In this document: positions 4,308-33,742 of the stretch, piece after piece
How positions within the stretch are numbered: position 1 is the stretch's first letter
Layout: every line of letters begins with the position of its first letter
From: Syntrophales bacterium
Lineage (GTDB): Bacteria; Desulfobacterota; Syntrophia; Syntrophales; UBA2210
Direction: 5' to 3'
NCBI GenBank assembly: GCA_028718565.1
Contig: JAQULO010000014.1
Span: 1-35,888, forward strand
Length of the DNA: 35,888 nucleotides
The notes under the pieces: model-generated
The model's database searches: none
Told to the model about the DNA's origin: nothing
What the model saw: only the letters and a program-made list of their open reading frames with translations
Position numbers and translations under genes: made by a program

Positions 4308-6803
4308 GTGATGCTTTTCCCGAAGAGTAGGTTGCTGCTGATCGCCGTAACGGCTTTGCTCGTCCTCGTTCCCCGTTCGGAGAGTTGGGGGAATGAGAGC
4401 GGGTGTGTCCGGTATGGTATCCGTGTCGCTTCATCCAAAAATTTTGACGGTGCGATGGCCCTGGCGGATTCATTTAAGGTGCTGGGGCTGAAGTCTTTCT
4501 GCCGGAAGGTTGATATCCCGGGGAAGGGACAATGGTGTCGAGTTTTTATCGGAACGTACACGGAGAGGGAACAGGCATTTGAGGTCGGACGTCAACTGGA
4601 GAATCGGGGAACTATCAGGGAATTTATCGTACAGAAGATCAGCGATTGCCCTGAAGATGGGGATGGCAAACCACCCGTTTCTCCTCCCCTCGTACAGGAA
4701 GAAGGAGAAAAAGGCGAAGCCCCATCAGCCTTGGATATTGCTGGTACTCCCGTCCCTGCCGATCGGAAGAAAGATGCCCCCGTGGCGCCGTCGGTTGTCG
4801 TGGCTGTCAAGGGGAGGGGGGCAGTTTTTGATAAGGCACAGGAGGTGTCCGGCAGATCCCCCCTGTATAGGATGGCCATGGCCTATTTTGGTTCCGGAAG
4901 GCATCAGGAGGCGCTCACACACCTTGAAAAGATACGGGAGCAGGGTGATTCCTCCGGTGTCAATCTGGAATTTTTGTTGAGGCGTATAGCTGATTGTCAC
5001 TATTTTATCGGTGAAGAGGGGAGTCGCCCCGATTTCCTGAAGGCTATTACCCGGTACCGAAACATCATACGGGATTACCCCCGTTCACACGGGGAGAACG
5101 AAACTACGCTCTATAGGCTTGCAAAGAGTTACGAATATTCAAAGCTGTACTATGAAGCGCTGGGGGAATTTGAGAATTTTTCTTTCCAGTATCCACAGTC
5201 AGTATACATCTCTGAGGCCATATTCATGACGGCCCAAATGCGGTACTTCACGGAACAATACGCAGAAGCCACCAAGAAACTGAAAGAGTACCTGAGCAGG
5301 TTTCCCGGCGCGGAGCACGAAGGGGTTGCAACCTTCTACCTGGCGGAGTGTTATCTTCAGGTACGTCAATACGATGACGCCGGTGCCTGGTACGAGCGGA
5401 CGCTCAGAGAATGGTCGTCCCTGGAAAAGATTCCCCCCCCCATCCTTATGCGGGTGGGAGAGTATTATTTTCAAGTCGGCGAATACGGAAGAGCCTTAGA
5501 GATCTTTTCCCTGTGTGTGAATCTGTTTCCCGAGGAAAAAGATTGTAAGAAGGCCCTCATCATGCTTGCGCAGGCGCTGATGAAAGCGGACCGGTTGCCC
5601 CCCTCTTTGAAGGTGTTAGGTGTTCTTCTCGAGAGATATCCTGAGAGCGAGGAGGCTCAAAAGGGTGCGATTCTTATCGCTGATGCAGGGGTTGAGAAGC
5701 CGGAGCTCAAGGTCCCGTTATATATTTTATCGGGAATGGGTCATTACCGTGAACCCATACATACATACGATGAGATGATCGATAAAACGCGTGACCTTGA
5801 TGCACGAGAGGCCTTTATCTACCGGAAGGTGCATGCCTTGGCGGAGGAGGGAAGATATCAAGAAGCTTTTGCGTGTTGCGATCGTTTGCTTGCCGCTTCT
5901 CCTCAGGGAATGTACCGTGACGGGGCCGAAAAAGACCTGATCCGCAGCTCCGCTCATCTTGTCGACGACTACTACTCCAAACAGGATTACCTTGCGGTAT
6001 CGGAACTGTATTTCAAGACGTACGAAAACGGGTTGTTCGAAAACGGCGGTTTTGACCTGCTGTTCAAAATGGGTAGCAGTCTTGGGAAAATAGGTCTTGC
6101 TGATTCTGCGTCCGGCGTTTTTGAGAAAATGCTAGTACGTTTTTCGGATCACAAAGAGAGAGACAAAATCTCTCTGGCCGCAGCGAATGCCGACTACCAG
6201 AGGGGTTTGTACGAAAGAGCGGAAGATCGGCTGGAAGATTTATGTGCCGTGGGTGTCCATGTTGAAGAAGAGGTGATGGAGGGTGCCAGCAAACTGGCGG
6301 GAGATATCTACTGCCGGAGAAACCAGTTCAGTGAGGCCGTCTCTCTCTATTCTAAGGTGCCGGATGTAAACAGAGATGCCTCCAAACTAGCAGATATTTA
6401 TAAGGGGTATGGTGATTCATTGAAAGAAAAAGGAAAGTATGGCTCTGCTGTTAAGATGTATCAAGAGGCCCTGGCGCAGTGTCCCGGCGGAGGTGTGTGT
6501 CCCGGGCCTGTATTCGAGGAGTCTTGCCTCGAGATAGCCGATTGCTTCTATCGTGAGGGAGACTACGAACGGGCCAATACAATGTATGAAAAGGGGCTCA
6601 ATGGTACTGCCGAGAGCAAGGATGTGTGGGCTGTGCTGAACATGTGCCGTGGGTACCTGAATATGGGTGACAAGCTTGCCGCTGAAAAGAACTTTTCTGC
6701 GTTGAAAGAAAAGAGCGTGGACAAGTTCTGGAAAGATGTGGCGGATTATTATCTGAATAATGAGACCTGGTCAGAAAAGTATGGGGAATATATTCACAGA
6801 TAA
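4308..6803 (+). CDS. Secreted/periplasmic SPOR-like domain + tetratricopeptide-repeat protein
   Basis: N-terminal signal-like segment LLLIAVTALLVLVPRSES; SPOR-like YGIRVASSKNFDGAMALADSFKVLG...CRVFIGTYTEREQAFEVGRQL; many TPR-like repeats; possible ATG start at 4311. Confidence 0.75.
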   Translation: MMLFPKSRLLLIAVTALLVLVPRSESWGNESGCVRYGIRVASSKNFDGAMALADSFKVLGLKSFCRKVDIPGKGQWCRVFIGTYTEREQAFEVGRQLENRGTIREFIVQKISDCPEDGDGKPPVSPPLVQEEGEKGEAPSALDIAGTPVPADRKKDAPVAPSVVVAVKGRGAVFDKAQEVSGRSPLYRMAMAYFGSGRHQEALTHLEKIREQGDSSGVNLEFLLRRIADCHYFIGEEGSRPDFLKAITRYRNIIRDYPRSHGENETTLYRLAKSYEYSKLYYEALGEFENFSFQYPQSVYISEAIFMTAQMRYFTEQYAEATKKLKEYLSRFPGAEHEGVATFYLAECYLQVRQYDDAGAWYERTLREWSSLEKIPPPILMRVGEYYFQVGEYGRALEIFSLCVNLFPEEKDCKKALIMLAQALMKADRLPPSLKVLGVLLERYPESEEAQKGAILIADAGVEKPELKVPLYILSGMGHYREPIHTYDEMIDKTRDLDAREAFIYRKVHALAEEGRYQEAFACCDRLLAASPQGMYRDGAEKDLIRSSAHLVDDYYSKQDYLAVSELYFKTYENGLFENGGFDLLFKMGSSLGKIGLADSASGVFEKMLVRFSDHKERDKISLAAANADYQRGLYERAEDRLEDLCAVGVHVEEEVMEGASKLAGDIYCRRNQFSEAVSLYSKVPDVNRDASKLADIYKGYGDSLKEKGKYGSAVKMYQEALAQCPGGGVCPGPVFEESCLEIADCFYREGDYERANTMYEKGLNGTAESKDVWAVLNMCRGYLNMGDKLAAEKNFSALKEKSVDKFWKDVADYYLNNETWSEKYGEYIHR

Positions 6804-20359: not shown

Positions 20360-20384
20360 GGGGGGGGGCGTTCCGCCCCCCCCC
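20360..20384 (+). terminator. Perfect 11-bp hairpin GGGGGGGGGCG-TTC-CGCCCCCCCCC; candidate terminator after flgE
   Basis: Inverted repeat read directly; only a short T stretch follows (TTTCGG). Confidence 0.6.
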
Positions 20385-20536: not shown

Positions 20537-21301
20537 ATGGATCTTGGCACCATACTGGGAATGATCTGCGGTTTCGGCCTTGTCATCGTTGCCATGGGCA
20601 TGGGTGGGGGGCTTGCCTGGTTTGCGGACGGCCCCTCCGCACTAATCGTGATGGGGGGTACGCTTGGAGCGGTCCTCATTAACTATCCCCTCTCCGATAT
20701 ACTCGGTGTCATGAAGGTGGCGAAGAACGTTGTTTTTGCCCCGCCCCTGATGAAAACGGACAAGGCGATAGAGCTCCTGGTGGAGATGTCCAAGACTGCC
20801 CGGCGCGAAGGCATATTGGCCCTGGAAAACAAGGTGGACACGATCAGTGATCCTTTCTTGATAAAGGGGGTGGAACTGGTGGTAGACGGCGTGGAACCTA
20901 ATGTTCTCTCCAAGATCCTCTACACCGACCTCGAATTTGCTGAGGAGAGACACCGGCTGGGGGCAGAGATATTCACAACCATGGGGAATTTTGCGCCGGC
21001 CATGGGGATGGTGGGTACGCTGATAGGCCTGGTCAAGATGCTGATGCAGATGGATGATCCGAGTTCCATCGGGCCGGCTATGTCGGTGGCCCTTGTTACA
21101 ACCTTTTATGGTGTTATTCTGGCAAATCTTCTTTTCCTCCCTATTGCAGGCAAGTTGCGAACAAGAAGCAGTCAGGAGGTGATGGTCAAGCAACTGATCA
21201 TCAACGGGATACTGTCTGTCCAGTCGGGGGACAACCCGAGAATGGTGGAGCAAAAACTCCATTCCTTTCTGTCTCCGGACAAGCGGAACTCGATATTTTA
21301 A
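20537..21301 (+). CDS. motA: Flagellar motor stator protein MotA
   Basis: MDLGTILGMICGFGLV; FAPAMGMVGTLIGLVKMLMQMDDPSSIGPAMSVALVTTFYG; internal ATG at 20537 preceded by GGTGGGGG. Confidence 0.95.
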   Translation: MDLGTILGMICGFGLVIVAMGMGGGLAWFADGPSALIVMGGTLGAVLINYPLSDILGVMKVAKNVVFAPPLMKTDKAIELLVEMSKTARREGILALENKVDTISDPFLIKGVELVVDGVEPNVLSKILYTDLEFAEERHRLGAEIFTTMGNFAPAMGMVGTLIGLVKMLMQMDDPSSIGPAMSVALVTTFYGVILANLLFLPIAGKLRTRSSQEVMVKQLIINGILSVQSGDNPRMVEQKLHSFLSPDKRNSIF

Positions 21302-21303
21302 CG

Positions 21304-22065
21304 ATGGAACCTGAGCTTAGAAAAAAGAGTAAAGAGGGTCCCGCCGCTGTGGGGTGGGAGTCCATATACTGTTCCCTGGTACTGATTCTGGTGGCCCTTT
21401 TCGCGATGCTGGTTTCATATTCTACGGTCGAGGGTGAGCGGATGACCAACTTCATGCGGGGTTTTGACACAGAACAGCAGACCTCGGGGGAGTCATCTGT
21501 TCTGGAGCCAAGGGACACGCTGAATTTCGGTAAACCAGGCGGGGGACAAAGCAGGAATGCTCTGAGTTCATCGCAGGCCGGGACAGAAGATGATAAAAAA
21601 ATAATCACGGTTGCCATGCAAGCCCTGCAACTCTATTTTGAGAAGATGAATTCGGGAGATCTTATTGATATCAAGGAGACTGAAGCCGGATTCAGGGCCA
21701 CGCTCAACAGTAGTCTCTTGTTCCCCTCGGGAACAGCTGCCGTGGAAGAGGGGGCATATCCATATATCGATAAAATGATTGCGGTGCTGCTGGAGTTCCC
21801 CTTCTCGGTCAGGATAGAGGGGCATACGGACGATATCCCGATCCATACTCCCAGATTTTCTTCCAACTGGGAGCTGTCAACGACACGGGCGATCAATGTT
21901 ATGAGATCTTTTGTTGAAAGGGGGGAACTCTCTGCGGATAGATTGTGTGCTGTAGGGTTCGGTGAATATCATCCCATAGCATCGAATGAGACCCCCGATG
22001 GAAGACACAAAAACCGTCGGGTTGAAATCTTTTTTAATCTGGGGGGGGAAAAGTCCTCGGTTTGA
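21304..22065 (+). CDS. MotB/OmpA-like protein with non-canonical TM segment (Asp replaced by Ser) - MotB1
   Basis: TM segment WESIYCSLVLILVALFAMLVSYS; OmpA-like VRIEGHTDDIPIHTPRFSSNWELSTTRAINVM...NRRVEIFF. Confidence 0.88.
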   Translation: MEPELRKKSKEGPAAVGWESIYCSLVLILVALFAMLVSYSTVEGERMTNFMRGFDTEQQTSGESSVLEPRDTLNFGKPGGGQSRNALSSSQAGTEDDKKIITVAMQALQLYFEKMNSGDLIDIKETEAGFRATLNSSLLFPSGTAAVEEGAYPYIDKMIAVLLEFPFSVRIEGHTDDIPIHTPRFSSNWELSTTRAINVMRSFVERGELSADRLCAVGFGEYHPIASNETPDGRHKNRRVEIFFNLGGEKSSV

Positions 22066-22078
22066 CGGTGGTGTCAGT

Positions 22079-22819
22079 ATGGGAAAAAAGCGTAAGAATT
22101 CGGAAGAGCAGGGGGGAAAATGGCTGGGGACCTTTAATGATATGGTTACCCTTCTCCTGACATTTTTTGTCCTGATCTTGTCAATGTCATCCCTTGATGT
22201 TGCCCGCGTCAAAGAGGCTTCTTATTCTTTCAGTAGCGCGTTTGGGATGATGGACCGGGGGAGCGTGTCGGGTGTTAGTATCTTTGAACCCTTTATTATG
22301 CCCATGGGGGACAAGCCCCTGACGGCGGAAATGAAGAAAAAGAGGGTGTTCGATCAGATTCAGGGGATACAAGCCGTCGCCTCTGAAATGACGGAGGAGG
22401 GGATAACGGTCCTGGTGGATGAGGAGTTGTTGTTTAGGACAGGTATGGCCGACATCGAAGAAAACAGCCCCTCCTTGGATTCCCTGGGTGCAATTATCAA
22501 AAACGCTGATTGCACCATAAGGGTAGAGGGACATACCGACGATGTTCCGATACAAAACGAACAATTTACGTCCAACTGGGAACTTTCAATAGCGCGTGCC
22601 GTGAATGTTGTCAACCATCTTGTCGCCAGGGGGGGTATTTCTCCTGAGAGACTCTCTGCTTCGGGCTACGCTGATTTAAAGAGCCGGTTCCCAAAAACAA
22701 CAGAGGCTGACAGGGCGCATAACAGACGGGTCGATATTGTATTAACGTTCAGGGAAAAGGATGCGTACCCCCATGCAGCGGGCGATGCGCAAATGTCGGG
22801 ACAGACTGAGGAGGGATAG
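22079..22819 (+). CDS. motB: Flagellar motor stator protein MotB (canonical) - MotB2; track ORF starts at 21986
   Basis: WLGTFNDMVTLLLTFFVLILSMS with canonical TM Asp; OmpA-like IRVEGHTDDVPIQNEQFTSNWELS. Confidence 0.93.
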   Translation: MGKKRKNSEEQGGKWLGTFNDMVTLLLTFFVLILSMSSLDVARVKEASYSFSSAFGMMDRGSVSGVSIFEPFIMPMGDKPLTAEMKKKRVFDQIQGIQAVASEMTEEGITVLVDEELLFRTGMADIEENSPSLDSLGAIIKNADCTIRVEGHTDDVPIQNEQFTSNWELSIARAVNVVNHLVARGGISPERLSASGYADLKSRFPKTTEADRAHNRRVDIVLTFREKDAYPHAAGDAQMSGQTEEG

Positions 22820-22824
22820 GAGTA

Positions 22825-23328
22825 ATGGCAAAAGAGAAGGATGAAGAACAGGATAAAGAGATCAAAGAGGCACCTCCAAAGGGCAAGGGCCCAACAATCA
22901 AATGGATTGTAATCCTGGTTGTTGTCGTGGTCCTCGGTGTTACCGGTTTTGTGGGATGGAACTATTATGCGAACCGGACGCCCCACGGCAAGGAGGCCGT
23001 CAAGGAACAGGTGCAGGTACAACCGATCGGGTCGGTATGGTCGATGGGCGCCATGGTAGTCAATCTTATGGACAATAATGGTGATAGATATCTCAAGACG
23101 GTTGTTAATGTCGAATTGACCAGTCCGGATTGTATCGGGGAACTTGAACTCCTGAAACCGAAAATTGTCGATACCATTTTGGACCTCCTCTCGTCAAAAA
23201 GATATCAGGATATCATGGGCTTTGCCGGGAAGCAACGGCTCAGGGATGAAATTGCCATACGGATGAACAATTATCTGAGCAAGGGGCAGGTTCAGATGGT
23301 TTACTTCACGGAGTTTATTGTCCAGTAA
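22825..23328 (+). CDS. fliL: Flagellar basal body-associated protein FliL
   Basis: TM segment IKWIVILVVVVVLGVTGFVGW; C-terminal VQMVYFTEFIVQ; before fliM. Confidence 0.93.
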   Translation: MAKEKDEEQDKEIKEAPPKGKGPTIKWIVILVVVVVLGVTGFVGWNYYANRTPHGKEAVKEQVQVQPIGSVWSMGAMVVNLMDNNGDRYLKTVVNVELTSPDCIGELELLKPKIVDTILDLLSSKRYQDIMGFAGKQRLRDEIAIRMNNYLSKGQVQMVYFTEFIVQ

Positions 23329-23351: not shown

Positions 23352-24329
23352 ATGTCTAATATACTGTCACAGGAAGAGGTTGATGCCCTTCTCGGAGGGA
23401 TCGCCGATGGTGAAGTTGTAAGGCAACCAAAGAAAGTGAGTGATAGTGACACCTCGGAGGCGCGCCCGTATGATCTTACCAGCCATGACAGAACTGTCAA
23501 TGTCAAGCTGCCGGGTCTGAATATGTCGAGTGAGCGATTTGTCAAGAGGTTTCAGGCTACCTTGTCGTCATTGCTCAAGAGGGTGGTAAGTCTGAATATC
23601 CTCTCGATCAGCATGCTGAAATACAAAGACTTTCTTAAAACGCTCCCTATCCCTACCAGTTTGCATGTCTTCAAGATGAATCCACTCAATGGGGAGGCGC
23701 TTTTTGTCGTTGAATCGCGGGTCATATTCACCCTTGTTGACATACTCTTTGGAGGAACGGGACGAGAGAGCTTTAAGGTTGAAGGAAGGGACTTTACATC
23801 GATAGAGATCAATCTGATTAAACGGGTTGTTCTAAGCGCCCTTTCCGATCTTGAGAAGTCATGGAGTTCGCTTGTGGATATCAAGGTTGTCTACGGCAGG
23901 TCGGAGATCAATCCCCAGTTCGCTCAGATCGTTGCGCCCATCGATTCCGTGTTCATTGTGAAGTTTGAAATGGAGATGGAGTATTCATCGGGAAACATGA
24001 CGTTATGTATGCCGTATTCGATGTTTGAGCCCATCAAGGAAAAACTGGAGATGGGATATACCGGGGGTGTGTCGAAAGTGGATAAAGGGGGGTGGGCACC
24101 GCGACTTAAGGAAAGCCTGAAATCACACGAGGTTGATGTCGTTGTTGAGCTGGGCAGAACGGAGCTGTGTGGCAGGGAGATCATCAATCTGAAAGAAGGG
24201 GATGTCATCTATCTGGAGCGTCATTTCATGGACGGGCTCGATATCTATGTGGAGGGTGTCCAAAAATTCAAAGGGTATCCGGGGATATATAAGGGCAACC
24301 AGGCGGTACAGGTGTCTAAAATACTATAA
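23352..24329 (+). CDS. fliM: Flagellar motor switch protein FliM
   Basis: N-terminal ILSQEEVDALLGGI CheY-binding-like motif; RPYDLTSHDR. Confidence 0.97.
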   Translation: MSNILSQEEVDALLGGIADGEVVRQPKKVSDSDTSEARPYDLTSHDRTVNVKLPGLNMSSERFVKRFQATLSSLLKRVVSLNILSISMLKYKDFLKTLPIPTSLHVFKMNPLNGEALFVVESRVIFTLVDILFGGTGRESFKVEGRDFTSIEINLIKRVVLSALSDLEKSWSSLVDIKVVYGRSEINPQFAQIVAPIDSVFIVKFEMEMEYSSGNMTLCMPYSMFEPIKEKLEMGYTGGVSKVDKGGWAPRLKESLKSHEVDVVVELGRTELCGREIINLKEGDVIYLERHFMDGLDIYVEGVQKFKGYPGIYKGNQAVQVSKIL

Positions 24330-33208: not shown

Positions 33209-33241
33209 CGGGGTGTGGGGCATGATAGGAGGTGCAATCTC

Positions 33242-33742
33242 TTGAGGAGTCTCAACAAAAGTGTGCGTGCCGTGGGCTGGAGTTCTGTCGCGATGATGTG
33301 TATTGCGGCGGGATGCCTGTTCCCGGCATTGACGGTGCAATATTCATGGTCTGCCCCCCCTGAATCCCGGGGGGTAGAAGATAAAAGATCGGCCTCCGAG
33401 CTCGGATATTCCGTTATAACAGAAGAGCGGAAGGCACGCGATACAGCAGAGGGGGATGTCACCGGATGCAGGTTTTTGTATTTCAAAGGTTTTGTCGTGT
33501 GCCCGGAGAAGTGCAACGACAAGATACTTGTGTGTGACATGGTCTTGGAATTATGTCATGATACGAGCCCTACTAAAGACAGTGCCGACCTGCGGAAGGC
33601 CATATACGACATATGCCTTAAAATATCGAATATTCCCGAGGCCCGCCGGTTCTTGAAGATGGAGATAAAAACATGCCTGAATGAGCTTATGGGGGGGGAT
33701 ATCATACAACAGGTATACTTTACTAAATTTGTTCTATTATGA
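33242..33742 (+). CDS. Divergent Cys-rich FliL-like protein (FliL2), TTG start
   Basis: N-terminal hydrophobic segment; C-terminus DIIQQVYFTKFVLL parallels FliL GQVQMVYFTEFIVQ; AGGAGGTG RBS 7 nt before TTG 33242. Confidence 0.65.
   Translation: MRSLNKSVRAVGWSSVAMMCIAAGCLFPALTVQYSWSAPPESRGVEDKRSASELGYSVITEERKARDTAEGDVTGCRFLYFKGFVVCPEKCNDKILVCDMVLELCHDTSPTKDSADLRKAIYDICLKISNIPEARRFLKMEIKTCLNELMGGDIIQQVYFTKFVLL

Follow-up and report, generated by a model that had tools for sequence, protein, structure and literature searches.

In the window analysed here, a stretch of 35,888 nucleotides from a Syntrophales bacterium, a single motA gene is followed by two motB genes, and the product of the first, MotB1, lacks the ion-carrying transmembrane aspartate that the second, MotB2, retains. 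This raises the question of what an aspartate-less MotB contributes beside a canonical one, and whether both chains could belong to one stator.

The motA-motB1-motB2 locus

The window covers a cluster of flagellar genes that encodes FliF, FliG, FliK, FlgE, MotA, two MotBs, FliL, FliM, FliN, FliP and FlhA, together with an FlhF-like SRP-type GTPase, a ParA-like ATPase and a sigma factor. The stator genes, their relevant sites and the genes downstream are as follows.

20537..21301, + strand: motA, 254 aa, the sole motA of the genome (PF01618, E=7e-30; NCBIfam PomA-like under cut-off)
21304..22065, + strand: motB1, Asp-less MotB paralogue, 253 aa (orthologues across many families)
21355..21426, + strand: transmembrane helix of MotB1, residues 18-41 (model helix H13-52 in A1 numbering; column table)
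21373..21375, + strand: Ser24 codon TCC of MotB1 at the stator-aspartate position (sequence, profile alignment)
21718..22017, + strand: OmpA-like peptidoglycan-binding domain of MotB1 (PF00691, E=1.8e-15; structure matches MotS/MotB/PomB periplasmic domains)
22079..22819, + strand: motB2, canonical Asp-bearing MotB, 246 aa (PF13677, 59.4 bits; PF00691, 55.6 bits)
22139..22141, + strand: Asp21 codon GAT of MotB2, the ion-carrying residue (sequence; Asp in 75/75 second genes)
22430..22726, + strand: OmpA-like peptidoglycan-binding domain of MotB2 (domain search)
22825..23328, + strand: fliL, next downstream (PF03748, E=5.4e-22)
23352..24329, + strand: fliM, switch gene, downstream (PF02154, E=2.5e-58)

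From motA to fliL, the successive genes are separated by 2, 13 and 5 bases. The open reading frame of MotB2 as listed mechanically begins at 21986, within motB1; the true start is probably the ATG at 22079, 13 bases past the motB1 stop, with the start at 21986 unused. A scan for promoters and terminators gave no clear signal for motB1 or motB2. The flgE-motA interval contains a near-perfect G9/C9 hairpin at 20360-20384 (GGGGGGGGGCGTTCCGCCCCCCCCC then TTTCGG), which may be a terminator parting the motA-motB1-motB2 unit from flgE. Elsewhere in the window, a second, weak FliL-like protein is encoded near the end of the cluster (33215-33742; 22.3 bits against a cut-off of 24.6), and an 831-aa protein with a SPOR domain and many TPRs is encoded at its start (4308-6803), flanked by sigma-54 response regulators and a PAS histidine kinase.

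It had been proposed from the letters of the window alone that MotB1 carries serine at the stator aspartate site. Alignment bears this out, placing Ser24 of MotB1 against Asp21 of MotB2, which lies in the canonical context WLGTFND. Homology extends along the whole of both proteins (30% identity, E=2e-32), and a gap-free alignment of their N-terminal profiles, 50 columns long, sets Ser opposite Asp (E=3e-12), so this register is certain. MotB1 follows the B-subunit plan of MotB/PomB, with a single N-terminal transmembrane helix, a plug-like helix and a C-terminal OmpA domain, which the original prediction had rightly judged to be a good peptidoglycan-binding domain. Its match to Pfam MotB_plug was 17.5 bits, under the cut-off of 24, a cut-off that some MotB1 orthologues elsewhere pass. 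MotB2 passes it with 59.4 bits and has the Asp, plug and OmpA domains, as in a canonical MotAB stator.

The window genome (2.53 Mb in 153 contigs, 98.4% complete) contains one MotB_plug match above cut-off, which is MotB2, and four MotA_ExbB genes. Three of the four are of the TolQ/ExbB type and adjoin ExbD/TolR-like genes, and two of these three are also near TonB-like genes. The idea of a further complete stator in this genome was rejected, all MotA_ExbB genes other than motA being of this TolQ/ExbB type. Given one motA and one Asp-bearing motB in the genome, either MotB1 and MotB2 share MotA or MotB1 works without MotA. The window MotA carries the pore residues P154, T161, T188, T189 and P202; among the partner MotAs of Asp-less pairs, P154, T161 and T189 are kept in 60/60, and T188 and P202 in 59/60. 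Three further MotA residues, N49, N64 and G205, are uncommon at single-MotB loci and common at two-MotB loci, both Asp-less and D/D (Asp in both chains). They were rejected as changes specific to Asp-less pairs: since they are also present in D/D pairs, they mark the lineage and not the loss of Asp. MotB1 is a conserved Asp-less paralogue, always paired with an Asp-bearing MotB2 and sharing one motA in the window genome, which supports the earlier view in so far as MotB1 cannot act alone as a canonical ion-carrying MotB.

Conservation and ancestry of the tandem MotBs

The sample comprised 75 distinct tandem motB pairs from 395 genomes of the phylum and added loci; it was picked by similarity to MotB1 and is no measure of prevalence in the phylum. 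The orthologue alignment agreed with the expected pairing of a non-Asp MotB1 with an Asp-bearing MotB2. The second gene encodes Asp in 75/75 pairs, and the first encodes a residue other than Asp in 61/75 (Ser 47, Ala 8, Gly 4, Thr 1, Asn 1), the others being Asp in 13 and unread in 1. The D/D pairs belong to Aquificaceae, to families f53, f90, f109 and f122, and to one genome of f69. Within the same order as the window, the MotB1 N-terminal profile matches 33/155 genomes, and FliM is found in 30/33 of these versus 30/122 of the others. Named relatives include a Syntrophobacterales MAG (L002). A local mutation or assembly error was rejected as the source of the serine, since Asp-less orthologues occur in more than 30 families in independent assemblies. 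The dN/dS of MotB1 is 0.09-0.49, comparable with that of MotB2, and MotB1 is under purifying selection.

Some loci depart from the common pattern. Outside the main phylum, the Nitrospirota MAG HyVt-426 (L072, 1152-2645) has Thr in the first MotB and Asp in the second, for which transfer, binning error and older origin are candidate explanations. A lone MotB1-like frame of 176 aa with Leu at the site (L233; G049:C126, minus strand, 963-1490), in a genome that gave no FliM match, is possibly a decaying remnant following the loss of flagella. In the draft genome G018, also without a FliM match, MotB2 is split into two overlapping frames (L067 and L111; in L067, 3524-4039 and 4003-4278), which we attribute to a frameshift or sequencing error.

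In a MotB tree built without the site column and the N-terminus, a single clade (99/91) unites all tandem MotB1s bar those of Aquificaceae; 31 of its rows are Asp-less and 8 Asp-bearing. The expectation that orthologues would not retain Asp stands for the window lineage and fails for an offshoot of this clade, to which the eight Asp-bearing rows belong. Within the clade the Asp state needs three changes, three being forced by well-supported branches; Asp would have been lost three times, or lost once and regained twice. Just ahead of the site, D/D MotB1s (YCD, YTD) and Asp-less ones (YCS, YTS) have a Tyr-Cys/Thr motif in common. MotB2s form nearly one group (72/86), as do the MotAs from two-MotB loci. 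These groupings of MotB1, MotB2 and MotA indicate that stators with two MotBs form an old lineage, one whose second chain must carry Asp and whose first may dispense with it. The Asp-less MotB1 belongs to this widespread lineage and is not an oddity of some deltaproteobacteria.

In the D/D lineages f53, f90, f109 and G526 (loci including L213, L239 and L246), B1 and B2 are adjacent and the pair lies apart from motA, for instance with flgI- and flgK-like genes on either side. These genomes have one motA match elsewhere, about 16 kb off in G476 and 17 kb in G511. That B1-B2 adjacency is kept with motA elsewhere favours a partnership of B1 with B2.

Helix anatomy and a proposed MotB1-MotB2 stator

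The transmembrane helix was analysed by column in 61 Asp-less MotB1s, column 21 being E. coli D32. The lost-Asp column holds only S, A, G, T or N (mean volume 88 A3). Column 30 is Phe in 61/61 sequences, and column 24 is Thr in 57/61 MotB2s and Leu, Met or Ile in 57/61 MotB1s. Trp15, Tyr/Phe19, Leu22, Leu33 and Ser/Ala at 35 and 37 are mostly retained in MotB1s, and the MotB1 entropy (conservation) profile correlates with that of single MotBs (rho 0.77, p=1e-5). Columns 20, 23, 27, 30 and 34 correspond to E. coli A31, M34, M38, F41 and W45, which form the MotB-MotB coiled-coil core (PMC10659934). Considering the column conservation together with these core positions, MotB1 lacks the ion-path polar residues but has the stalk pattern. 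A displaced acid within the MotB1 helix was rejected: columns 17-37 are acid-free in 61/61 sequences, in keeping with the original prediction. Glu19 of MotB1 (column 16), directly after the conserved Trp, alternates with Gln (12 Glu, 25 Gln). The anatomy of the helix, with its dimer-core Phe, the small residue at the lost Asp and the gapless register, favours a place for MotB1 in the stator stalk, as far as can be read from alignments.

The periplasmic domain of MotB1 folds like that of an ordinary MotB (Foldseek match to MotS 9LJL, E=2.2e-16), and its GHTD and SNWELS..RA motifs are invariant or nearly so in 18 MotB1 rows. The closest solved full-length relatives of MotB1 are 6YSF of Clostridium sporogenes (E=6e-56) and 6YSL of Bacillus subtilis. 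The structure models of MotB1 are single-chain models built from 18 sequences (mean pLDDT 78) and support the domain order only.

Residue sizes in B1 and B2 were anti-correlated at columns 20, 34 and 37 (per-family rho -0.53, -0.64 and -0.40, uncorrected for phylogeny). Under independent contrasts on the MotA tree, this anti-correlation was lost or weakened. Since the signal did not survive phylogenetic correction, co-variation was rejected as proof of B1-B2 contact and is left uncounted.

To our knowledge, all solved MotAB stators contain two identical MotB chains, which speaks against a mixed stator, and the sequences of MotB1 and MotB2 are compatible with homodimers too. We propose that motA-motB1-motB2 encodes one flagellar stator, in which the MotA pentamer would enclose a MotB1-MotB2 heterodimer in place of two identical chains; we hold this reading with a little over even confidence. 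MotB2 would provide the single ion-carrying aspartate. MotB1 would provide the second helix of the central stalk, with a small neutral residue at the former aspartate, along with a plug-like helix and a peptidoglycan anchor in addition to those of MotB2. From these features we infer the heterodimer, its position inside the MotA ring, the ion count and the role in motility.

The accepted turnstile model has the 5:2 motor advance in 36-degree steps, at a cost of 10 ions for each turn (PMC9389320). On that picture, a stator with one ion site would need only about five for a turn of the MotA ring, in cycles of 72 degrees. Models with two sites have the two aspartates drive alternate half steps (PMC9175137), so in a one-site stator the other half step would have to be passive. 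Such a stator would also have a fixed polarity relative to the rotor and half the energy-limited torque. The number of ions per stator turn and the equivalence of both MotB chains are open questions in the field, and according to a review of the 5:2 motor, a new model would be needed if a turn took five ions and not ten (PMC9389320). If the proposal is true, B1-B2 heterodimers would be a natural single-site motor for testing the alternating two-site mechanism. Their stators would be cheaper per turn, which, speculatively, may matter to low-energy anaerobes.

In the literature searched, mostly open-access papers without supplements, we found no description of a heterodimeric or additional MotB of this kind; nor did the tags of the Desulfovibrio vulgaris loci DVU0048-0050 appear there. 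An ancestral-reconstruction study of MotB retained only FAD/YAD/LAD sequences (PMC7787011), and the main text of a 2025 MotAB survey of 205 genomes makes no mention of Asp-less MotBs (PMC12505986). Such selection and silence would account for Asp-less MotBs having been passed over. The occurrence of the arrangement across much of the phylum suggests an unrecognised asymmetric type of flagellar stator. We advance more tentatively, and at somewhat less than even confidence, the full claim of a natural one-ion-site stator: MotA5-B1B2 with five ions per MotA turn, half the maximum torque, half the ion cost and a defined rotor orientation, in an old lineage across much of the phylum that Asp-only studies would miss.

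Alternative roles and known systems

The good OmpA domain of MotB1 and the tight packing of motB1 with motA, motB2 and fliL would also suit a scaffold separate from the stator, surrounding its ring and anchored to peptidoglycan in the manner of MotX/MotY or FliL, which recruits or stabilises units while MotB2 homodimers sit within MotA; the two-site engine could then stay intact. However, the gapless register, Phe30, small site residues and MotB-like conservation of MotB1 are stalk features without an evident reason outside MotA, and a lipid-facing helix should put Leu, Ile or Val at the Asp position, so we consider this role unlikely. With both MotBs having to share one MotA in the window genome, MotA5-MotB1(2) could instead form non-conducting dummy stators that vie with MotA5-MotB2(2) for places at the rotor and so tune or brake the motor, the balance being set by expression or turnover. 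Ion-site mutants of E. coli MotB are dominant-negative, which agrees with this idea. Nevertheless, it is made quite improbable by the cost of a permanent brake on half of the stators when the genes are adjacent and apparently co-expressed, by the lack of a regulatory gene between motB1 and motB2, and by the long-term conservation of MotB1.

The at least three changes of Asp state within the MotB1 clade look like the product of a relaxed need, as would be expected if MotB1 had MotA or other partners in some non-rotary function, such as load sensing, polar placement or cell-wall maintenance, and lost Asp with no ion flow needed. Strict adjacency to motB2 and the association with FliM-bearing genomes speak against such a role, to which we give little credence. 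Loss of the catalytic residue in a draft genome of 153 contigs might even point to a relic, either a decaying duplicate or an assembly error. This is extremely improbable for a full-length protein present in so many families and independent assemblies, with low dN/dS and with its helix and peptidoglycan-binding residues conserved; an origin of MotB1 by decay or artefact can practically be dismissed. The strong points for the MotB1-MotB2 heterodimer are the strict Asp asymmetry, the single motA and the stalk-like helix.

Relative to MotA5MotB2 and PomA5PomB2 stators, the locus has the same motA-motB order, TM-plug-OmpA architecture of MotB, peptidoglycan-binding fold and MotA ion-path residues, and differs in having two different MotB chains per MotA, one of them without the ion-carrying Asp. 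We regard the Asp-less MotB1 with its Asp-bearing MotB2 as a novel form of the MotAB stator and not as a machine of a new type. More than one motB per genome is also seen in dual stators (MotAB with MotCD or MotPS), where, unlike motB1, every motB encodes the Asp and is served by a motA of its own. Loss of ion sites shifts the ions-per-turn ratio in another rotary motor, the V-ATPase, in whose proteolipid c rings some subunits lack the ion carboxylate; that family is unrelated, and the loss there affects ring subunits, whereas here it affects the central stalk.

The AglR-AglQ-AglS gliding motor of Myxococcus xanthus likewise combines one MotA homologue with two MotB homologues, and whether AglQ and AglS form homo- or heterodimers is stated as unknown (PMC9389320, PMC9120999). 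In contrast to the window pair, AglQ and AglS are both predicted to bear Asp, and they serve gliding without a flagellar cluster. The same gene order is seen in Aquifex aeolicus, where one motA is followed by motB1 and motB2 in an operon whose MotBs have near-identical transmembrane and N-terminal regions (97% identity) (PMC4525482). The window pair does not fit this type, in which both chains have Asp and near-identical transmembrane regions. Aquifex was rejected as the same system, since both copies at the Aquificaceae loci carry Asp and lie outside the MotB1 clade; the two-MotB operon of Aquificaceae is probably an independent duplication.
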